Shown here in pieces: positions 439 to 28,962 of a stretch of 34,907 bases of DNA; position 1 is the first letter of the stretch, and every line of letters starts with the position of its first letter. Made by a program: the position numbers and the translations under genes. Source of the DNA: a virus; the IMG/VR virus record IMGVR_UViG_3300046820_000502, positions 1 through 34,907 of that record; one strand, 5' to 3'. The notes beneath the pieces were generated by a model. It saw only the letters and a program-made list of their open reading frames with translations. It was not told the origin of the DNA and ran no database searches.

Positions 439-510
439 GCCTTGTTAGCACAGCGGTAGTGCGACTGTTTTGTAAACAGTAGGTCGTTGGTTCAATCCCA
501 ACACAAGGCT
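439..510 (+). tRNA. tRNA-Thr(TGT)
   Basis: The acceptor stem GCCTTGT (439-445) pairs perfectly with ACAAGGC (503-509), followed by discriminator T510. The anticodon stem ACTGT/ACAGT encloses a 7-base loop with anticodon TGT, which reads ACA. The T-arm contains GGTTCAATCC-type sequence. CCA is not encoded. ACA is used often in the phage structural genes, so the tRNA probably supplements host supply. The first 18 bases recur with one mismatch at 29788-29805. Confidence 0.95.
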
Positions 511-519
511 CGCTTTAGT

Positions 520-558
520 ACCACCCCGCCCTCTCAACGATGGTTTCTCTGGGGTGGT
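520..558 (+). other. 8-bp GC-rich hairpin between tRNA-Thr and tRNA-Arg
   Basis: ACCACCCC (520-527) is the exact reverse complement of GGGGTGGT (551-558), with a 23-base loop. It lies in the 57-base spacer between the first two tRNA genes. There is no T run after it, so it is not a classical intrinsic terminator. A tRNA-processing structure or transcript-stabilising hairpin is more likely. Confidence 0.5.
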
Positions 559-567
559 CGTATTTAC

Positions 568-637
568 GACCCGTAGTTCAACGGATAGAACACCCGCCTT
601 CTAAGCGGGTTATCTAGGTTCGATTCCTAGCGGGTCG
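568..637 (+). tRNA. tRNA-Arg(TCT)
   Basis: The acceptor strand GACCCGT (568-574) pairs with GCGGGTC (630-636) with one T-G wobble; the discriminator is G637. The anticodon stem CCCGC/GCGGG encloses loop CTTCTAA with anticodon TCT, reading AGA (and AGG by wobble). The T-arm is CTAGG-TTCGATT-CCTAG. CCA is not encoded. AGA is a dominant arginine codon in the phage genes, for example throughout 16589-21317, so the tRNA matches phage codon demand. Confidence 0.95.
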
Positions 638-644
638 AATTATA

Positions 645-717
645 GGGGGTGTAGTTCAAAGGTCAGAACACTCTGCTCATAACGGAAGAAACGCTGGTTC
701 AAATCCAGCCGCCCCCA
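645..717 (+). tRNA. tRNA-Met(CAT)
   Basis: The acceptor stem GGGGGTG (645-651) pairs with CGCCCCC (710-716) with one T-G wobble; the discriminator is A717. The T-arm is GCTGG-TTCAAAT-CCAGC. The anticodon loop CTCATAA gives anticodon CAT. The outer anticodon stem pair is a C-A mismatch. CCA is not encoded. CAT tRNAs can be elongator Met, initiator Met or lysidine-modified Ile; the first base pair G-C argues against the usual bacterial initiator, but Ile2 cannot be excluded. Confidence 0.88.
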
Positions 718-15040: not shown

Positions 15041-16168
15041 ATGCCTCAAATTTCTAAGGGAGATACGTTTGCTGACACACAGCAACTTACAGCCGCCAGA
15101 CTTAACCAACTCGTAGATTCCGCCACTCTTGCCGTTGGTGCAATTTCGGAGCAAACTGCCATCACAGCCAACACTGTCGAGGCTACTGACTCTACTATCA
15201 TTAACGACGGCGGTGTTCTCAAGAAGGCTACTGTCGGAGATTTGCTTGGCTCTGGCATCAATGTCACCACGAAAAGTGTGACATCAACTGCAAACAATGA
15301 CGTTACAGTCACCCCTTATGACGGAGTTATTGTCACTGGAAGCACATATGTAAGCACCGATGGTCTTACTGTTACTGTAACGACAACAGCCGCTCATAAC
15401 CTTGTCGTCAACAATGTCGTCCTTATTTCAGCCGCTGGTACTGGTTATAACGGGACATTCAGGGTCAGTGCCGTAACAACCAACACATTCCAGTACGTCA
15501 TGTTTACTGCGGCTACAGCGATGACAACGCCTACAGCCTGTAACTACGTCCGAAAGGCTACTGTTATTGACAATGGCAACTCTGTTGTTTCTGAAAATAG
15601 TTTTGTAAACAACACTGTCAGAAGCCCTAACGTTCAGACTGATACGCTTACTGCTAAGACAACTAACGTTACTTCCGCCATACAGTACAGCGGAGTTCCT
15701 GTCATGGGTCTGGCTTCTACGATTGAAGTCACCATTCCTTTTGCACAGTGCAACGGAACTACAGCCAGCGGACTTGCCAGCACCTGTTCTCAGTGGGTTC
15801 CTGTCCTTACGATTTCTTCCCTGACAAAGACAAACAAGGAACTCTGGACTGTTGAGGCTGATTTCACGGCACAGTACTTCTCGTTCTATGGTGCTAGATT
15901 TAGAATCATTCAAGTCAGCACAGGCAATGTCCTTTGCATGGAACAGCATTTCTTGCAGGGCTTTAACAACTTCCATCTGCTTCAGGTTAAGATGCGAGCC
16001 GTAATCCCTGATGCCACAGTTTTTACAAGCGACTCTATCAGGGTCGAAATGTGGTACAGTGCTACGGCTGTTGGTGCTAGCAACGTCTTGAACGTCGGCT
16101 ACGGCGGTGCTTTGACAGACCCTACAATCACAAGGCTCGCCAGAATAACCAAGTTCAACAAGCCCTAA
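15041..16168 (+). CDS. tail appendage / fibre protein with nozzle-shared beta module
   Basis: The 375-residue protein is dominated by Thr/Val/Asn-rich strands. Residues 1-85 contain a helical stem (TAARLNQLVDSATLAVGAIS) and NDGGVLKKATVGDLLGSG, typical of fibre N-terminal regions. Residues about 107-160 carry VTVTTTAAHNLVV and VSAVTTNTFQYVMF, matching the module at residues 115-165 of the preceding nozzle protein. Residues 215-375 form a separate beta domain that may be the distal or receptor-binding part. It starts one base after the nozzle stop and overlaps the next gene (TAATG). Confidence 0.75.
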   Translation: MPQISKGDTFADTQQLTAARLNQLVDSATLAVGAISEQTAITANTVEATDSTIINDGGVLKKATVGDLLGSGINVTTKSVTSTANNDVTVTPYDGVIVTGSTYVSTDGLTVTVTTTAAHNLVVNNVVLISAAGTGYNGTFRVSAVTTNTFQYVMFTAATAMTTPTACNYVRKATVIDNGNSVVSENSFVNNTVRSPNVQTDTLTAKTTNVTSAIQYSGVPVMGLASTIEVTIPFAQCNGTTASGLASTCSQWVPVLTISSLTKTNKELWTVEADFTAQYFSFYGARFRIIQVSTGNVLCMEQHFLQGFNNFHLLQVKMRAVIPDATVFTSDSIRVEMWYSATAVGASNVLNVGYGGALTDPTITRLARITKFNKP

Positions 16169-16584
16169 TGACTGAGGATGTCCTTATAGCCTTTATCGAA
16201 GAAAACCGACATAAGGGTAGGGGTCAGTCTTTTGGGTGGAATGGTGATGAGTTGAAAATGTATTTACACTGGGCGGCTAGATTCAACTATCTTTTCGTCT
16301 CTATAGAGGATAATAAGTTTACAGGGGTTGCTATCATGTACCCTTTGAGTAAACGTTTTGACAGTGAGGCTGATGCCCTGTACGATTTCAATAACAAGTT
16401 AGAAACTAACGAAGACGACCTGTGCATAATGGACTTCGTGTCTACCACAGAAAAGTCAAAAAAAGACCTTGTAAGTAAACTTAAAAACCGCTATCCAAAC
16501 TGGAAAGCCCAAAACAAGTGGGCTTTAAGGTTTGGTGAAGTCAAAAAGATATCAAACAGATACATAAACCTTTTAAATAATTAA
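16168..16584 (+). CDS. hypothetical 138-residue protein, gp13-like position
   Basis: An alpha/beta protein of 138 residues precedes the internal virion protein genes. T7 gp13 has the same length and position, and that protein is acyltransferase-fold-like. Here segments such as NKFTGVAIMYPLSKRF and DLCIMDFVSTTEKSKKDLVSKL followed by a C-terminal WALRFGEVKKI could fit a small acyltransferase fold. I see no acetyl-CoA P-loop signature, so this is only a suggestion. It overlaps the upstream fibre stop (TAATG). Confidence 0.7.
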   Translation: MTEDVLIAFIEENRHKGRGQSFGWNGDELKMYLHWAARFNYLFVSIEDNKFTGVAIMYPLSKRFDSEADALYDFNNKLETNEDDLCIMDFVSTTEKSKKDLVSKLKNRYPNWKAQNKWALRFGEVKKISNRYINLLNN

Positions 16585-20400: not shown

Positions 20401-21317
20401 TTGCGGCTGTTGAAGTAGCCAAGGCAAGCGGTCTTTACGAAGACCCGTCTGCTGGAATCCCGACAGATGGATACGGCGAAATTGAGATTGGCGGACAGTC
20501 TGTAGCCTCAAAGGATTTTGTCATCCCGCAGTCCAACGAAAGCAGAAAGAAGCAGATGATGGAATACATGAAAGGTCGTCTTGGTTACGTCCCCGCTGGA
20601 TTTGACGATATGTGGAGGAAGACACACCCTGAGTCTACCCTGCAAATCAAGGAAACTCCCTATGGAGTATTCTTTACAGACGGCAAGGGTGAGTGGAAGC
20701 AGATGTCCTCTAGCGGTGGCAAGCAACTCCAGCCGCATGAAGTGGCGGCTAATAGGGCTGTCCAGTTCGGAGCACTCCAGCCTGACGGAACTTATCTTCC
20801 TACTGAGTTTATTGCTGGTTCTGGCATCAAACTTGGCGGTATCGGCACATTCGGTACGCCTAGCGATGCTACGAAGTTCAGAATGGAATACACTAGAAAG
20901 ATTAAGGCTCTGAGATATGCAGATGAACTCAGGCAGATGAACGAGGTTACTTTCCGCTCCATGATGCCCTCTCAGTGGGGTAAGGCTAAGGCTAAGGTCG
21001 CTTCGCTTGTCGCCCAGATGAGACAGGAACTTATCGGCGTAGGCTCCGTGTCTGACTTTGAACAGAAGTTGCTCAAAGACCTTGTTGCTGACCCGACAGA
21101 CTTCTTCAGACTCCAGTCCACAGTCAGGTCTACATATGAAGAACTTATTGACAAGTTGGCACGAAGCCTTGTCGAAGACCCTCAAACTTATGGTATTGAA
21201 GTTCAGATGCCAAGGGATAAACAGGCTCAGTTGAAAAACATGAGAGCAGTTTATCTCGCTCAGCAAGAGCGTTATAAAAAGAAGATGTCTGATTTCCAAA
21301 ACCAAGAATCTAAATAA
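17433..21317 (+). CDS. internal virion protein, gp15-like, with LysM-like segment
   Basis: The 1294-residue protein lies between gp14-like and gp16-like genes, as T7 gp15 does. The N-terminus SPFGKYTGGIQPVQGLFEMG and long helices to about residue 270 are followed by a low-complexity Pro/Ala/Glu linker (about 380-490). Residues about 526-583 look like a LysM module: GDIGNVMIKYGMTQQEFKKL, NPHI, and a final INVPE. LysM binds peptidoglycan glycans. The remainder is long helical, with a second hydrophobic Gly/Ala segment near AAQAGALWYGGGWG and a charged C-terminal helix. It would be ejected with the DNA into the periplasm. No catalytic residues were identified. Its stop overlaps the next ATG (TAATG). 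Confidence 0.75.
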   Translation: MASPFGKYTGGIQPVQGLFEMGASIGKNYAAGITQVADNLTKGVEDYMKVKRESEYADTEFDAEGKKYTVLAEMLKSEPETAHLVEGITPILDTIAKGRKGSHSAKLAALSQVKAQGKALSETFQYMGLVRGAKERRLFDEANTLPPEGEEVTTKSFGLNTKDTQWSPNLSYTANVERVKGNYRKWLDSHKDELASGKFRVMSEDDFIKDWKRRLPNAIQNSGLATQDKAWAMDIIQQNELLEGMSDEDMGAQGFFMQDWATINSPSSQGGSKISTATAPAGTIAQEPASSARQFHPNAIKLQDENERLIVEANKLKAKIGTSWFGGDDPARARLAEITKQIGDNNLIINSLGGAPSSSQINRSNANRTAPLAKVTFGEEESPVLAPDKVEEPIVSAPVVPVPVPSSSAPVARTTEPTEEYDPTRSSIWNLPEWAGGKPERKSQPNKATASPAKVAEPQAEAQAPQGLPEPEAQPKAAAPQKDAGKPPARNMTRILANEKLAIENYNKKKVAEWKAAEDKTKELTLGAVEGDIGNVMIKYGMTQQEFKKLNPHIKHADTYFNFEKGGRRKFNQKFADVKINVPERAGKPATVTDLTQLPQEVLVRLKQQNGGYLSIEQGKNAGLEAGGSADYAADEGGAAIDTAGNVTITEDINALKNRLPDEEQSAEGDGIDTGQFTPIKLKPITGTRPTTGSSLPSLPAGVKASYTPEQTEDIKIAARHVQETTAEVQSQQRSVDPAIKYLEAIKDNVINGDGTAVDYGSYGKWEKLHPDAASAINTAAQAGALWYGGGWGKTVKFANSIEKVDFVTRKSKIARETATKFIEAIRKTGRIETPEEVAKAVSLGMKQAGLANKQLSKELLYEGVGRIGGSITKSATWSAIINQMVGDEPYSVGDDVNNSTIKNELASVLEEVRKARQDEGGYSAVPFNSKPITAAEIVKIRTILDNKIATLRNISQQNVAQLESIKTNSTPDNLLRLAEELKTNSKAQLAAVEVAKASGLYEDPSAGIPTDGYGEIEIGGQSVASKDFVIPQSNESRKKQMMEYMKGRLGYVPAGFDDMWRKTHPESTLQIKETPYGVFFTDGKGEWKQMSSSGGKQLQPHEVAANRAVQFGALQPDGTYLPTEFIAGSGIKLGGIGTFGTPSDATKFRMEYTRKIKALRYADELRQMNEVTFRSMMPSQWGKAKAKVASLVAQMRQELIGVGSVSDFEQKLLKDLVADPTDFFRLQSTVRSTYEELIDKLARSLVEDPQTYGIEVQMPRDKQAQLKNMRAVYLAQQERYKKKMSDFQNQESK

Positions 21318-24300
21318 TGGCTGAAATATTCAAAAATCCTGACCTTATACTTACGCCTTCGGTTAATGCTCCGTCGGCTGGAGGAAAGGAACACACGGGT
21401 AATAACGAGATTGATGCCTATATCAACTCGCTACCAGAAGATGAGCGTGAAGATGCTCTTCTAGCCATTACTGCACCTAAGACGGGCGAAGACATTCACA
21501 ACGAAATGAATGCCGCCGACCAGTCTGGGGTTGTTTATGACCCTAGCAAGGAAGACTGGATTAAGATGAACCAGTTCTACCGCACCAGAGATACGGACTA
21601 TCTCAAGGCTCTATCAGAAGGTGCTGGTCATATCTATCAGACGTTCGGAAAGGCTGTCAGTTCTCTTGCTGACGACCCTTCTATGGAGAACTTCTCCAAG
21701 GTCACTCCCAGCGTATTTGAAGGTGCTGTCCAGAATCTCAGAATGCTCTACGGCATTGCCGCCGAGTCCGCAGACTCTACCAGTCCTCAGGCTAGGTTCT
21801 TCAATTTGCTTAACGGAAGAAACCAAGACAGCGACGAAGCGTATCGTGTGTTCCTTGAGGCTAGGAATTTCATGCGGGAATCCCAGCAGTATATTGAAGG
21901 CAAGAAGACGATTCTCGTAGACAAAAACCACCTTAACAACGACTTCGTTCAGGCGGCGGCTCTGGTGGCTGACCCTACCATGTTCATTCCGTTCGGCAAG
22001 GCTTTCAGCGTTGCTGGCGGAGTCCTTGGTATGTCCGAACGTTCTATGGCTCTTTCTGCTAGAACTGCGGCTCTTAAGAACATGATTGTAGGCGGTGCTT
22101 TGAAGTACGGCGTTGGTATGCCTATCGAGTTCGTTGGCAAGGGTACTAGAGTCACACTTGACCATGCCATCGCCACTGGCGAAAAGGCTTTCGTTGCGGC
22201 TACGGGAGTTTCCTCCGAGACATTCAGAGAAGGCATGAGAATGACTGGTGTCGGAAGCCTTGGTGCTGGATACTTTGGTCACAACGTTCCGTTGCTGACA
22301 AATGCCTCTGGTGCTTATGTGGCTGGCACAGCCGCCGCTGGCATCGGTGAGACTGCATCCGTCATCGGACACCAGATAATGAAGGGTGAGAGAGGTATCG
22401 CCTCTTATGCTAAACAGGCTATGATGGACTCCGCCAAGCAGGGCGTTGAACTGTCAGCCCACTCCAAGGCTTTGCTCAAGATTGTCGATGGATTCGACCC
22501 TCTTATCGACTACACCACTACCATCGCCCAAGGTGCGGCTCATGGCTCCATGATTGGTGCTGGACTTGGCTACTGGTCTGGCGGCGAAGAAGGCATGGCT
22601 CAGGGCATCGGTGCTGGTATCGCCCTTGGTTCAGTCGGTGGTACTGCTGGTAAGTTGCTCGCTGATGTTACTGGCAGAACCACAAGACACAGGACACACA
22701 TTCAGGCTAAACTTGTCCTTGAAGGACTGAGAGACATCCACCCTGAACAGGCTCACAGTTGGGAAAGAGCAGAGGCTTGGGCTAGAACCAGAGGCTTCTC
22801 CCTTGACGGCATCCTTGCCGCCAAGGACACCATCCACCCGAACACACATATCGAGGTTCTGACCAACAGGGAATACGCCAATTATCTCGCAGAACACGGG
22901 CTTAACCCTGATACCTACGACGGCAAGACCTTCCTGAAGGACGGCGACCAGCCGCTTAGCCTTAGGTCTTTCGAGCAACAGAACGGCTACGTCGTCGAAA
23001 ACAGAGCCAACGGAACAGTCAAAATTTACCTCAACGCCGATGCCGCTCCTAGGGCTACGATGGGACACGAACTGTTCCATTCCATCCTGCGTAACAGCGT
23101 GATGAAGGATTACTACGCTCAGGCTGTGAAGGAGAAGGTCATCGGTAGCAGAGACTCCGAAGGCAATGTGACAAACAGGGGCGTTGTTGATGCGAAGGAA
23201 GTCAGGGATATGTTCAGCAGATACCTTGACGCTGAGTTCAAAGACCCCGCCGAACGTGCCGATGCTCAGGCTCGCCTCGACATGGCTCAGGAGGCTTTTG
23301 AAGCGAATGGTCAACTCGTATCAGACCCCTCTCTTGGTGGTCGTCCATTGCTTGAACATCTGAGCGAAGAATTCGGTGCGTACTATTTCTCTCACCTAGT
23401 GATGGATAAGCCAATTGATTGGCTATATCACGGCGGTGATTTGCCAGGAATTCGTGGTGTTCTTGACAACGCAAAAATGCAGTTCAGGGACTACTGGAGA
23501 AGTAGAATGAATCTGACTGCTCCTGAGTTCGACTTCAACAGAACTTTTATTGACGAGAATGGGTTTGAAAAACTCGTACCTATCGACGAAGTATTTGCTC
23601 CTGCCGAGCGTGATATGTTCGGTAACATCACTGGCAGAACACAGCGTGTGGTCAACCCTGCTATGGACTTGTTCTTCAGGGATATGCTCAGGGTCGAAAA
23701 GAGGGTCAACGAGACAGGTCAGTTCGACATCACTAAACTGGACAAGAAGACCCAGCAAAGATTCATCGACTCCGAGGGTCTTGACGGCGTGTTCACAAAG
23801 GACTCTTTCGGAAACTACCAGCACAGCACCGAGGCTCAAATCAAGCGTGAGAACAAGATAAAGGGCAAGGCTGTGTACCAATTGCTGATGGGCATTCCCG
23901 AGGCTGAGCGTACATTCACAGTCGATGCGGACGGAAGCATCAGAGGTTATCTGACACCCCAGATGCTCGACAACATCGTCAACGCTGGTCACATGAGCAG
24001 GGCTATGGCTAACAAGATTAGCCTATTCCAGTCCATTTCCAGAGGCGAAGCGGCTGGCAATGTCGTCGATTTCGGTGGCATCGGAAGGACAGCCGAACGA
24101 CAGATGGATGTCAACAACCCCAGCCGTATGTACGGCGACAGGGTTCCGTTCAAGTCTAGAACCGCAGTCGTGTTCGGTCTTGATACTGTCATCAACAAGA
24201 ACGGGCAGTTCCAGTTCAAGGGCAATATGCTGGACTACAAGGTCATCGAGACACGGGCTAACAACGAATGGAGCAATCTTGATGTTCGGTCACTTTGGAA

Positions 24301-27300
24301 CGGAAACCATACGGAATACCTAGCGGATTTCTTCAGATACCTTGAGAACGCATCCAAGAATCACGACGACCCTACTAGGGTTCCTTCGGCTGAACTCTGG
24401 ACTGACGACAAGGGTGGCGAACGCCGTAATGTCATGCACCAAATCCTTGGAATGGCTAAGGGTGAGGCTGACACATACCTTAACACTCCTAAGGCTGAGA
24501 TTAACCGAAACGCCTATTCGACTGTCATGTCGTTCAGCCTGAATCGGATGACCAACCTTAGGCTCCGCCAGCAGAGCGTTCCGTTCAGGTTTGATAACGC
24601 CTATCGTGACCTTGTTCGTAACTGGTCGCCGTCTGAAATGGACAGCGAACTCACTCCCCGTGGCACTGTGTTCAAGCACCCTTCTGGTTACAGATTTGTC
24701 CAGAGACAGGACGGAAAGACTGATGCCTTCGACGAGATGGGCAAGCGTATCGGAACCTACCAGACGGCTAAGGAGGCTACTGAGGCTGGAAGAAGATACG
24801 CCGCTAAGCACCCGTCAACTGTCATGCTCAAGGATAATATGCAGGACAACAGGGTCATCAATCGTTCTCCCAGTCAGGGTGAAGGAGAAGTACCTATTAT
24901 CAGCAGAAGCGAAGCCGCTGAAGCCAGACGCATAGGCGACCTGTTTAAGACCCCTGAGATGCAGGAGTTTGTTGGAGATAGAAAACTTGTCAGGCAGACA
25001 GCCGACGAAGGATATACTGATTTTTTAAACAAATTTAAAGAAGGTGAAATAGACCAAAGGACAGCCTTATATATGCTAGACGAAATGTCTAAGGATATGT
25101 TTGGCGGTCTTGATAGACAGAAGACCAGACTAAGACTCAAGGAACTTGAGGATATGGCTATGGCTAATTATAAGAAGGCTAACCCCAATGGGAACTTCTA
25201 TGGTAGCGATAAGCAACTAATGAGCCATCTTTCTCTTAATGAATTAGGAGAATGGAAGAGGCTTAGTTCTGAACTGGAAAAGAAAGCACCAGAAAATCAA
25301 CGCCACGGAGAATTCACAAGAGAGGCGGCAAGTGAATTTGCCAGAAAGGTTGAAGAGGCAAAGAGATGGGTAAGGAAAGCGTCTCCTACTTATAATGATT
25401 TTGCTGGATACATTGCAGACAATGTTCCGCTTCGTGAATACTACCAACACGCTGTGTACTCTAAGCAGTTTAGAACTGGAGAGCCTGTAGTCGTAGTCGG
25501 CGTACACGGAACTCCTAACGAAGCATTCCTTAAGTCCAAGAAATACGACCCTAAGTACATTGCATCTTCTGGCTCAAGCGGCAAAGAACGAGGCAAGCCA
25601 AGAAGCGACCTAGACTGGATTAAAAGCCAAGAAAAGGAAGCGGGAGAATATGCTGGTATGTTCTTTGCTTCGTCCGACTCTACTGCTTTGAATCCTTTTT
25701 ATCAGCCAGAAAGAGGCAATGCAAAGATTGCAAAATCAGCCATTAGATTTGACAATCCTCTTGTAGTTGATGGTCAATTCACGGACTTGATGAAACGCAC
25801 CGAGAAGATTCTTGGTGAAGCCGTAGAGAAGGGACACGACGGCGTAATCTTTATCAACCAAATGGATGGTGGAAATCTTGATGTTTCCTTTATTGTCCCT
25901 GCTGAAAAGGCTAATCAGCACCAACGTATGATTGGTAGCACCCGTGAGAAGGCTAAGGCTGGTGCTTCGTACGAGCCTCTACCTAGAGGTGAAGGTGTCA
26001 CAAACAGGACTGTCAATCTTTCCCCCAATGAAGGAACTGGCGAACTTGGAACGTCCAGATATAACGTTCCTAGAGAAGAGCCTAAGTTCAGGGATTCCAT
26101 CGGATACTACGAACAGTTTAATCTTCCAGCAAACACTGTACTCCCGTTTGAACCTACATACTTTGAGTCTCTCGTTAGAAAAGGCACTAGAAAAGGCACT
26201 GGAAAAGGCACTGGAAAAGACGGGCTTGATTTCACTCAAGCACCCGACCCTAAGTATCATAACCTTTGGCAGTACCTAGACTATCACCAACAGGCTAAGT
26301 CTTCCGTGACAGTTGGTGACGTTCTTCAGTTCATCAAGGAACAGGGACGACATAGAGCACCTAATGTTCCTAGAGACTACCACAGCAAACTTGCAGAAAC
26401 GCTTCTGGCTCTTGCAGACCAAAAGCAACTCAGCGTCAGGGTAGAGATAAAGGGCGGCGGTGGATGGTCTGGTGGTGAAAAGATTGTGAATATGACTAGG
26501 GAATACCAAGTCATATCTACCCGTGAAGCCACATTGAAGGAGCGTTATGCCAAACTCATCGAGTTGCAAAACAAGGCTCCTACTCCTGAACTTAAGAAGG
26601 AAATCGAAGCCCTCAAGAGGCATCTTGAACAGGCTGAGAAAGAGAAAGAAAAGCAGAAGAAAAGAATCGAGGAAGAAACTAGGAGAAAACTCGAAGATGA
26701 CGAAGAGGAAGAAGGAGTTGAAAAGAAGGACACCTACAGATTCCCTGTTCAAGTCATCCAAGAATCGAAGGGACATCAGCAGATGTTCATCGACCTACCC
26801 AGTCTAATCGACGAGGCTTGGGGTGCTAGTTCCAGAAAGGACGTGGGCAAGAACTACTCTGGTTCCGAGCGTACCAGAAGAATCAACGCCCTAATTGGAC
26901 ACTCCTTTGAAGGCACAGCCTTGGAAGAACTTGGTCATAGCATATTCGGCAGAATCTCCAGAGAGGCTGCAGAGATGGCTCCAGAGATAGCACCTCTTAT
27001 CGAGACTGTTTATCGAGGCAGAGGCGTGGAAGGTGTCGCATGGAAGAACGGAGTTAATGACTTCTTGGACAAGACCAAGAAACAAGTGCGTGATGGAATC
27101 GTGCTTCCTGAGCCAGTCCTTGCGTTTGCAAGAATCCTTGAACTCCAGAAGTACGTCCTGCAAAACACGCTGGTCAGAACCCCTAAAGGTAAGTTTGAGT
27201 CCCTGTGGGATACGAAGGGTTACTCCATCAACGAAAGACACCACACAGACAGTGGTAAGCCTAAGCGTGGAAGAGGACAACTCAGGGAGGGTTACTCGCT

Positions 27301-28657
27301 TGTCGAGCCTTGGGATGTCAACGGAAGACAAGCCTACGACATAAAGGACAACAGGTATAATGTTCCTATTAACAGCAAGAACACAAGCGTCTACAGATAT
27401 ACCAGTACTCAGGAGTTTCTAATCGCATTGATGAACGACCCTCAGCATATCGCAAGATGGGTGCATATGCCTTTCAAGGCTGACTTGCTTGATGCGTTGG
27501 AAACTAGGACTACAAGAGAAGGACTCCCTCCTAATGTAAGCAAACTTCATAGCCAGATGTATGATGGTTTGACTATGTTCATAGGAAAGGAGCCGACGTT
27601 CTCGCACCAGTTGCTGTCTGAGATGATTAGACTTATCGACAGCGGAAGACCTGAGGGTACGGATATCGCTCCAGTTAACCTCGAAAACAACAGAGGAAAG
27701 CCTCAGTCGTCTCTTCCAGAAAGACCTAAGGGCTTCCTTACTCCCTACGAAAAGGCTTTTGTTAACGACTGGAGAGTGAACATGGAGGCTTGGTCTAAGG
27801 CTAACAACAAGCCTAACGCACTTGAGGGACTAAGCGACTTTGAGATATGGCAGAGAGTCGGAGAAGACAAGCCTCCGTTTGAAGGTTCAGATGAGGCTAT
27901 GCGTGACCCTGCAAGTTGGAGAATAAACGCAAAGGAAATAATCGAATCCGAGAAGACTGGCGTAAGAATCGGCAAGGTTAAACTCAAGGATGAAAAAGGA
28001 AACATCATTGGCGAAGAGGAAGGAATGCTCAGGGCTGGAATGAAGATAACCTCTGGAGCAATGAAAGGTAAAATCTTTGACCCTAACAATGTTCCCACCA
28101 AGACAATTGGAAGATGGGATGAGGCTACAAAGAGATGGATTAAGGATGACACAGACTTCGGCGGAAGGATTGATGACACCACAACCGATACTACTACCGA
28201 GACAAAAACTGTAACCGACGACCAAGGCAACAAGGTCATCGTGGACGACGACGGCAACCCAGTAATCGACGACGATACTGGCAAGCCTGTAATCGTGGAT
28301 GACGACGGCAACACTGTAATCGTGGATGATGATGGCAACAAGGTTCCAGTTCCTAAGCCTGTGCCTACGCCTAAGCCTGTGCCTACGCCTAAGCCTACAC
28401 CTAAGCCCCCTGTCACCCCAGTCGCTCCTGCTAAGATTCCTAAGCGTGACTTCACTCAGGCTGACATCAGGGTGTGGAGGTCTTGGAAGACTGAGACTTA
28501 TGGCAATGGTTCTGCCCTGAAGAACGCCCTTGGTTATATCATCATGAGCGTCAATAAAAACTACAGGGTTTACAATCCTGCCAAGGTGCTTCTTGGAATC
28601 TACAAGGATGAGGATGAAGCCAAGCGTAGAGTCCAGCGAGAGGAACCTAAGCGATGA
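21317..28657 (+). CDS. giant ejected multi-domain protein (gp16-like position): zincin-like, ART-like and repeat domains
   Basis: This 2446-residue protein is the last and largest virion gene, where T7 encodes gp16. Residues 210-450 contain Gly/Ala-rich hydrophobic stretches (for example GSMIGAGLGYWSGG) fit for membrane crossing. HELFH (584-588), with a candidate third ligand in SEEFGAYY (about 683), suggests a zinc metallopeptidase. Residues 1122-1165 and 2415-2446 share a small YR-x-GK-IGTY-type module. Residues about 1393-1535 resemble ADP-ribosyltransferase modules of phage polyvalent proteins: VHGTPNEAF, GMFFASSDSTA, GHDGVIF, LDVSFIVP. A (R/G)KGT repeat (about 1621-1635), a charged helix (1740-1804), a degenerate zincin-like EELGHSIF (about 1870) and DDxGN repeats (2301-2345) follow. 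No lysozyme or transglycosylase motif was seen. Ejection and enzyme activities are inferred. Confidence 0.8.
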   Translation: MAEIFKNPDLILTPSVNAPSAGGKEHTGNNEIDAYINSLPEDEREDALLAITAPKTGEDIHNEMNAADQSGVVYDPSKEDWIKMNQFYRTRDTDYLKALSEGAGHIYQTFGKAVSSLADDPSMENFSKVTPSVFEGAVQNLRMLYGIAAESADSTSPQARFFNLLNGRNQDSDEAYRVFLEARNFMRESQQYIEGKKTILVDKNHLNNDFVQAAALVADPTMFIPFGKAFSVAGGVLGMSERSMALSARTAALKNMIVGGALKYGVGMPIEFVGKGTRVTLDHAIATGEKAFVAATGVSSETFREGMRMTGVGSLGAGYFGHNVPLLTNASGAYVAGTAAAGIGETASVIGHQIMKGERGIASYAKQAMMDSAKQGVELSAHSKALLKIVDGFDPLIDYTTTIAQGAAHGSMIGAGLGYWSGGEEGMAQGIGAGIALGSVGGTAGKLLADVTGRTTRHRTHIQAKLVLEGLRDIHPEQAHSWERAEAWARTRGFSLDGILAAKDTIHPNTHIEVLTNREYANYLAEHGLNPDTYDGKTFLKDGDQPLSLRSFEQQNGYVVENRANGTVKIYLNADAAPRATMGHELFHSILRNSVMKDYYAQAVKEKVIGSRDSEGNVTNRGVVDAKEVRDMFSRYLDAEFKDPAERADAQARLDMAQEAFEANGQLVSDPSLGGRPLLEHLSEEFGAYYFSHLVMDKPIDWLYHGGDLPGIRGVLDNAKMQFRDYWRSRMNLTAPEFDFNRTFIDENGFEKLVPIDEVFAPAERDMFGNITGRTQRVVNPAMDLFFRDMLRVEKRVNETGQFDITKLDKKTQQRFIDSEGLDGVFTKDSFGNYQHSTEAQIKRENKIKGKAVYQLLMGIPEAERTFTVDADGSIRGYLTPQMLDNIVNAGHMSRAMANKISLFQSISRGEAAGNVVDFGGIGRTAERQMDVNNPSRMYGDRVPFKSRTAVVFGLDTVINKNGQFQFKGNMLDYKVIETRANNEWSNLDVRSLWNGNHTEYLADFFRYLENASKNHDDPTRVPSAELWTDDKGGERRNVMHQILGMAKGEADTYLNTPKAEINRNAYSTVMSFSLNRMTNLRLRQQSVPFRFDNAYRDLVRNWSPSEMDSELTPRGTVFKHPSGYRFVQRQDGKTDAFDEMGKRIGTYQTAKEATEAGRRYAAKHPSTVMLKDNMQDNRVINRSPSQGEGEVPIISRSEAAEARRIGDLFKTPEMQEFVGDRKLVRQTADEGYTDFLNKFKEGEIDQRTALYMLDEMSKDMFGGLDRQKTRLRLKELEDMAMANYKKANPNGNFYGSDKQLMSHLSLNELGEWKRLSSELEKKAPENQRHGEFTREAASEFARKVEEAKRWVRKASPTYNDFAGYIADNVPLREYYQHAVYSKQFRTGEPVVVVGVHGTPNEAFLKSKKYDPKYIASSGSSGKERGKPRSDLDWIKSQEKEAGEYAGMFFASSDSTALNPFYQPERGNAKIAKSAIRFDNPLVVDGQFTDLMKRTEKILGEAVEKGHDGVIFINQMDGGNLDVSFIVPAEKANQHQRMIGSTREKAKAGASYEPLPRGEGVTNRTVNLSPNEGTGELGTSRYNVPREEPKFRDSIGYYEQFNLPANTVLPFEPTYFESLVRKGTRKGTGKGTGKDGLDFTQAPDPKYHNLWQYLDYHQQAKSSVTVGDVLQFIKEQGRHRAPNVPRDYHSKLAETLLALADQKQLSVRVEIKGGGGWSGGEKIVNMTREYQVISTREATLKERYAKLIELQNKAPTPELKKEIEALKRHLEQAEKEKEKQKKRIEEETRRKLEDDEEEEGVEKKDTYRFPVQVIQESKGHQQMFIDLPSLIDEAWGASSRKDVGKNYSGSERTRRINALIGHSFEGTALEELGHSIFGRISREAAEMAPEIAPLIETVYRGRGVEGVAWKNGVNDFLDKTKKQVRDGIVLPEPVLAFARILELQKYVLQNTLVRTPKGKFESLWDTKGYSINERHHTDSGKPKRGRGQLREGYSLVEPWDVNGRQAYDIKDNRYNVPINSKNTSVYRYTSTQEFLIALMNDPQHIARWVHMPFKADLLDALETRTTREGLPPNVSKLHSQMYDGLTMFIGKEPTFSHQLLSEMIRLIDSGRPEGTDIAPVNLENNRGKPQSSLPERPKGFLTPYEKAFVNDWRVNMEAWSKANNKPNALEGLSDFEIWQRVGEDKPPFEGSDEAMRDPASWRINAKEIIESEKTGVRIGKVKLKDEKGNIIGEEEGMLRAGMKITSGAMKGKIFDPNNVPTKTIGRWDEATKRWIKDDTDFGGRIDDTTTDTTTETKTVTDDQGNKVIVDDDGNPVIDDDTGKPVIVDDDGNTVIVDDDGNKVPVPKPVPTPKPVPTPKPTPKPPVTPVAPAKIPKRDFTQADIRVWRSWKTETYGNGSALKNALGYIIMSVNKNYRVYNPAKVLLGIYKDEDEAKRRVQREEPKR
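26177..26220 (+). repeat. 12-bp tandem repeat encoding (R/G)KGT
   Basis: The 12-base unit (A/G)GAAAAGGCACT is repeated three times plus a partial fourth copy. It encodes a basic linker RKGTRKGTGKGTGKD. It lies in the linker after the ART-like module of the giant protein and may vary in copy number by slippage. Confidence 0.85.
28217..28411 (+). repeat. 27-bp tandem repeats (DDxGNxVIV) and 18-bp PKPVPT repeats
   Basis: Five consecutive 9-residue units of the form DD-x-G-x-x-V-I/P-V/D occupy 28217-28351. Two PKPVPT units and PKPT/PKPP variants follow to about 28411. At the DNA level, copies share GATGACGACGGCAAC-like cores with silent differences, so the array is not brand new. The acidic Asp-Gly units could bind calcium, and the Pro-Lys units form an extended linker before the C-terminal module. 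Confidence 0.9.
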
Positions 28658-28962
28658 GTCCAGTAGACCCGACGATTATGGAAACTGCCGAAGAGTTCAA
28701 GAAGGGTGGATGGATAGTGGCAGTCCTTGGTGCGTTGGGTGCTGTCGCTAGGTTTATCATAACCGAGGAGAAGTTCAGGTGGGTAGTCCTTCTCCGTAAG
28801 GCTATCGCTGGCTCCATAGTCGGTACGCTGGTGTACTTCGCTATCAACTTCGCACCAATAGACCCTATCTATAAAGGTATTATTTATTCGTCCTCTGGTG
28901 CGTTAGCCCCAGATATTTTTGACTGGATTAAAAGCAAATTTATAAAAGAAACCAATGGCTAA
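28654..28962 (+). CDS. holin, LydA-like (holin superfamily III type)
   Basis: The 102-residue membrane protein has three probable transmembrane segments: residues 18-36 (WIVAVLGALGAVARFI), 45-65 (LLRKAIAGSIVGTLVYFAI) and 73-90 (KGIIYSSSGALAPDIFDWI). The order GALGAVARF, then a short basic loop, then IAGSIVGTLVYF, then a final SGALAPDIFDW element resembles the LydA-type phage holin family. It would permeabilise the inner membrane at the time of lysis. The ATG overlaps the giant gene's stop (ATGA), with GAGG upstream. The adjacent spanin-like gene supports a lysis cassette. Confidence 0.8.
   Translation: MSPVDPTIMETAEEFKKGGWIVAVLGALGAVARFIITEEKFRWVVLLRKAIAGSIVGTLVYFAINFAPIDPIYKGIIYSSSGALAPDIFDWIKSKFIKETNG

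Follow-up and report, generated by a model that had tools for sequence, protein, structure and literature searches.

The window, by which we mean the whole 34,907-nucleotide stretch of viral DNA analysed here, contains on its plus strand a very long open reading frame that starts with ATG and encodes 2446 amino acids, exactly the frame given in the original prediction. The upstream gene, encoding a 1294-aa protein, ends on the first base of this giant gene, and a holin-like gene overlaps its end (Table 1). When the whole giant was searched against Pfam, PHROGs and the PDB, no match above threshold was found, and tblastn against 50,697 phage records likewise gave no match. The best match of the major capsid protein was to Phage C75C1 (33% identity); judged from this protein, the phage is only distantly akin to named podoviruses. 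Scans of bacterial genomes with a profile of the giant's zincin-like domain and with the major capsid protein gave no relatives. Three tRNA genes lie in tandem at the record's left end (window 439-717; Thr-TGT, Arg-TCT and Met-CAT). The last late gene of Phage C75C1 (L019:8707-12738) encodes a 1343-aa protein with a Gly-rich N-terminus and, by eye, an ADP-ribosyltransferase (ART)-like stretch (LYRGG...VYTSP) with no Pfam ART match; apart from it, this phage encodes a giant about 2770 aa long.

Table 1. Features of the giant gene and its neighbours, with positions in the window and residue numbers of the giant protein
Feature	Position	Strand	Evidence or remark
Tail tube / head-closure Hc3-type protein, 757 aa	12766..15039	+	PHROG 3287 and 578
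138-aa conserved neighbour, same operon	16168..16584	+	synteny
gp14-like protein, 274 aa	16589..17413	+	synteny
gp15-like protein, 1294 aa	17433..21317	+	synteny; no Pfam family above threshold
Giant polyvalent-type protein, third ejection-protein position	21317..28657	+	ORF; synteny in relatives
Gly/Ala-rich, least hydrophilic stretch, residues 201-455	21917..22681	+	glycine-zipper-like GxxxGxxxG at 406-438
Zincin-like metallopeptidase domain, residues ~500-720	22814..23476	+	51/51 conservation; both motifs in predicted helices after strands, moderate pLDDT
HELFH, residues 584-588	23066..23080	+	H584, E585, H588 invariant in 51/51
EEFGAYY, residues 684-690, probable third zinc ligand (Glu)	23366..23386	+	51/51 invariance
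Linker copy 1, NWSPSEM, residues 1102-1108, backbone/module junction	24620..24640	+	
Small domain, residues ~1105-1166, diverged duplicate of the ~75-residue C-terminal domain	24629..24814	+	
Linker copy 2, NRSPSQGEGE, residues 1182-1191, left edge of ART module	24860..24889	+	
Exchangeable ART module, residues 1192-1566	24890..26014	+	helical N-terminal half and ART-like core
ART-like core, residues 1378-1566	25448..26014	+	conserved HGT 1397-1399, NP 1480-1481, GHD 1506-1508, DGG 1517-1519, D1522
Linker copy 3, NLSPNEGTGE, residues 1567-1576, right edge of ART module	26015..26044	+	
EELGH, residues 1870-1874	26924..26938	+	E1870, E1871, H1874 invariant in four close relatives
27-bp tandem repeat, DDDGN-type acidic repeats	28217..28340	+	
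Pro-rich repeats (PKPVPT)	28352..28407	+	
Conserved C-terminal domain, residues 2372-2446	28430..28654	+	ends AKRRVQREEPKR; window HMM E 9e-37
Holin-like protein directly downstream of giant	28654..28962	+	PHROG 6384; conserved neighbour

Scans of IMG/VR yielded 3, next 7 and finally 55 loci, with contigs partly shared between scans, and about 50 contigs encode relatives of the giant. The same backbone was found in complete reading frames spanning 1581 to 4413 aa. When the backbone model was compared with BFVD viral structures by Foldseek, nine matches were obtained at E<=1e-3, the strongest with E 1.9e-31. All came from uncultured Caudovirales, and several bore the names Large polyvalent protein associated, ART-PolyVal-like or NAT_SF. 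These names file the giant among the polyvalent proteins described by Iyer et al. (PMC5512222), in agreement with the original prediction. The giant combines at least two disparate effector-type domains in one polypeptide (zincin-like and ART-like, with GNAT added in relatives), and it is located among the late virion genes, as is typical of polyvalent proteins of phages.

The order Hc3 tube - 375 - 138 - gp14-like - gp15-like - giant - holin - g228 was kept in about 30 contigs, within the reach of each contig. Complete gp15-like frames measured about 730-1400 aa, and most of them abut or overlap the giant. The labels gp14 and gp15 denote order and size, not sequence similarity to T7. Like T7 gp16, which is about half its length, the giant closes a series of three consecutive ejection-type genes and is the largest of them; unlike gp16, it has no detected transglycosylase, and the two show no detected sequence similarity. 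Its place in the T7 gp16 slot, which had been proposed from the window alone, is supported by synteny across the family, now that the gp16-position proteins of related phages have been compared. No Pfam match to a lytic transglycosylase was found at the N-terminus of the giant or its close relatives, consistent with the earlier remark that such a motif is missing. This absence is no obstacle to the gp16 slot, because the transglycosylase of T7 gp16 is a phage-specific extra that is absent from P22-like phages (PMC8954989).

The membrane-active segments that had been predicted were not recovered. The giant has no canonical transmembrane segment, as no 19-residue stretch reaches a mean Kyte-Doolittle value of 1.3, and only a Gly/Ala-rich, relatively hydrophobic stretch was found at about residues 201-450 (12-19% Gly). 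The predicted repeats are present, as a tandem array and a Pro-rich array near the C-terminus. The C-terminal tail closes 43 of 55 sequences, and the HMM of the C-terminal domain also matches the position after the backbone in many relatives, with E values as low as 8.5e-10; in the window this duplicate was recognised by alignment only. The helical C-terminal region further contains a conserved EExxH motif (EELGH), which might be a di-metal site or a zincin that has degenerated.

Zincin-like and ART-like domains

The giant contains a single HExxH motif. Taken alone this is weak evidence, because 7% of shuffles of the giant's sequence contain one by chance. In 51 of 51 sequences, the farthest of which are 18-19% identical to the window, H584, E585 and H588 were invariant, together with E684, E685, F686, G687, Y689 and Y690 (EEFGxYY). 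The relatives had been gathered partly via the pattern EEFG[AS]YY, so the invariance of EEFGxYY is partly a sampling effect; HExxH was not in that pattern. In the backbone model both motifs lie in helices that follow a strand-helix-strand-strand succession (pLDDT about 60-80). Zincin-like MPTases are recognised by HExxH with a downstream Glu in a later helix; both motifs are kept in all 51 sequences and fall in predicted helices of the model, which bears out the predicted zincin-like motif.

A PDB fold search with the zincin segment returned nothing at E<=1e-3, with the metallopeptidases collagenase H and MATCAP appearing only at E>1, and a profile search of the PDB based on 26 zincin sequences found no match. 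DUF5700, a putative zinc peptidase family, was matched in 5 of the 26 (best E 0.0012), the window copy being sub-threshold. Since PDB structure and profile searches gave no confirmation, we named the domain zincin-like from its conserved motifs and their order.

For the ART-like module, the best Pfam match of the window fragment was ART-PolyVal (PF18760), below threshold (E=0.014), and its 16.6 bits stay under the curated cut-off of 31.2 bits. The copy of the sister locus L002 also gave ART-PolyVal as its best match, again sub-threshold (E=0.0086). We compared the order of the ART motifs (HGT, aromatic-F-x-x-S, NP, GHDG...D) and found that HGT, NP, GHD, DGG and then an Asp are common to 14 diverse window-type copies, in which H1397, N1480, P1481, G1506, H1507, D1508, D1517, G1518, G1519 and D1522 are invariant. 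By alignment, the last motif of the window copy differs from the PEQIKS form of ART-PolyVal. Alignment of profiles with hhalign linked the window-type ART (ART-2) to a second type (ART-1) in sister proteins (P=1e-4, probability 58%). Sister proteins with the same backbone match ART-PolyVal above the curated cut-off, with 37.1, 67.7 and 60.6 bits (E 6.5e-9, 2.4e-18 and 3.6e-16), and ART-1 has members that exceed this cut-off by a wide margin (2.4e-18). The PDB chains nearest to the ART core were ART toxins, at a sub-threshold E=0.32. An AlphaFold model of residues 1190-2145, built on eight alignment rows, had a pLDDT of about 25-35 over the ART core, and a PDB fold search with this low-pLDDT model gave no match.

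Judged by motifs and scores, the window module is likely a divergent relative of ART-PolyVal. The original prediction of an ART-like module thus stands for the family, with the window copy consistent with it; the window copy itself stays sub-threshold and its fold was not modelled with confidence. The prediction had also made structural matches its touchstone, and against the PDB neither the zincin nor the ART fold was matched at E<=1e-3. Effector-like modules as such were recovered in the giants of the family, of both ART and GNAT type.

Linker peptides and module exchange

A short peptide, [YFW][SQKM]PxE(G), recurs between the modules of the giants. It was counted 115 times in the giants compared to 10.7 expected, whereas the other genes of the same contigs contained 14 compared to 8.4 expected. 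The expected number of linkers inside the 59 mapped ART/GNAT domains was 12.7, and none of the 104 fell there. A single protein can have as many as eight or nine copies; L001, L003, L041, L044 and L063 are among the carriers. Two of the three window copies are degenerate (SPSEM and SPSQGEGE).

The modules between the linkers vary. ART-2 alone is present in the window, L001, L002 and L011, ART-1 together with ART-2 in L003 and L008, ART-1 alone in L018, and GNAT followed by ART-2 in L010. GNAT acetyltransferases were found in 17 of 28 sister proteins, with scores well above the cut-off in relatives, and in relatives farther away one to three GNATs occur, as do further unnamed modules. This linker-delimited, exchangeable organisation of modules is an addition to the original prediction.

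Between the window and L003, DNA identity reaches 91% in the ART module, compared to a median of 51% outside; between L001 and L002 it reaches 97%, compared to 58% outside. The trees of backbone and ART module conflict (AU p=5e-6 and 2e-5). Going by these identities and trees, modules are swapped between phages independently of the backbone. Within the L001/L002 module, the part from HGT to the aromatic motif (about 1394-1463 in window numbering) has 51-64% DNA identity and its flanks about 95%, as if the would-be NAD/substrate-binding part alone had been replaced.

What the linkers do can be read in two ways. They may stay uncleaved, as flexible joints or in-frame recombination junctions, with the zincin acting on host or envelope proteins; this reading is a serious possibility, which we hold to be somewhat less likely than not. 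The identity of the ART module falls at its right linker, and L018, which lacks ART-2, has in the corresponding position just one linker-like peptide, its left half like one linker and its right half like the next, which resembles a deletion between two linkers. A few linker copies also share identical codons, such as CCAGCGGAGGGC. Moreover, the virion RNA polymerase (vRNAP) of N4, which has an HExxH domain too, is packaged unprocessed (PMC5512222), which counts against cleavage. On the other hand, synonymous codon identity between linker copies was 0.53, barely above the 0.46 expected, so selection appears to act on the peptide and not on the DNA, and DNA-level repeat identity is not favoured as the sole source of the linkers (53% vs 46%). 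The residue before Pro, which is lineage-specific, also tracks the backbone: in 22 proteins, module linkers and the backbone-junction linker had the same residue in 92% on average, compared to 26% when shuffled. Mapped on the backbone tree, the residue shows four changes at the backbone junction and five in the module linkers, and with so few changes the agreement may mostly reflect shared ancestry.

Alternatively, the giant could be a self-processing effector polyprotein in the ejection channel, in which the zincin recognises [YFW]-S/K/Q/M-P-x-E and cuts out ART, GNAT and other modules in the host, the linkers being at the same time the borders of the swaps. We hold this to be possible and rather doubtful. 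That the zincin cleaves the linkers is a hypothesis in keeping with their placement, and the general idea that MPTase domains set other domains free had already been put forward by Iyer et al.

Proposed role and known systems

We propose that the giant is probably a polyvalent protein in the third ejection-protein slot of an uncultivated podovirus lineage. For packaging, ejection, linker cleavage and enzyme activity we infer the following course. From its position and from precedents, the giant would be synthesised late along with the proteins of the virion, placed in the head and ejected through a channel of the gp14/gp15-like proteins. In the cytoplasm its modules would act on host targets, the ART by ADP-ribosylation. 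With less certainty, the zincin might cut the linkers before packaging or after entry and thereby free the modules.

A chiefly structural role in ejection, in which the giant would form a gp16-like inner-membrane channel and the enzyme-like modules would be degenerate passengers, is unlikely. Its position directly after the gp14/gp15-like genes would suit such a role, as would the divergence of the window ART, whose fold was not confidently modelled and whose last motif is not PEQIKS. However, the ten ART residues invariant across 14 diverse copies, the invariant zincin motif, the exchange and diversification of the modules and the well-scoring GNATs of relatives all argue against degenerate passengers. 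A late intracellular enzyme or tail-associated protein, neither packaged nor ejected, would agree with the lack of a classical transmembrane helix and is likewise unlikely, given that the slot between gp15-like and holin genes is kept across the family and that proteins of the closest annotated kind, T4 Alt, P1 DarB and N4 vRNAP, are packaged in virions (PMC5512222, PMC12633501).

The class to which the proposed polyvalent ejection protein belongs is already known, from the polyvalent proteins (Iyer et al. 2017) and from the giant third ejection protein of N4. The polyvalent proteins of PMC5512222 are likewise large multidomain proteins of the late region; they combine domains of the zincin-like MPTase, ART and GNAT types, and packaging and injection have been predicted for them. 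That paper already recorded GNAT and ART side by side, one case being an uncultured Mediterranean phage (BAR32501.1). The giant family differs from them in having one fixed backbone in the gp16 slot, a recurring linker and module exchange; the words 'linker' and 'glycine' are absent from the main text of PMC5512222. The N4/DEV virion RNA polymerase, the third ejection protein of Schitoviridae (PMC12633501), is a giant enzyme in a gp16-analogous position, in N4 with an HExxH domain. In contrast to it, the window giant has no detected RNA polymerase family, the giants of its family carry ART and GNAT modules instead, and the two are unrelated by the sequence searches used. T4 Alt is a virion-borne ART that is injected and modifies proteins of the host, but it is encoded by a stand-alone gene and belongs to a different ART clade by PMC5512222. 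The novelty is therefore the gp16-slot backbone with its linker peptide and module exchange, not the class.

The finding joins two subjects that are usually separate: the ejectosome of podoviruses, about whose largest protein little is understood, and polyvalent effectors that are injected. The rule read from the sequences (linker peptide, module borders and lineage-specific residue) makes self-processing by the giant's own metallopeptidase directly testable. ARTs have been reported in only 3% of podoviruses (PMC9503650), and the giant family, absent from the phage records searched, would add many podovirus ARTs. Altogether this suggests that the DNA-injection machine of these phages also delivers host-modifying enzymes.
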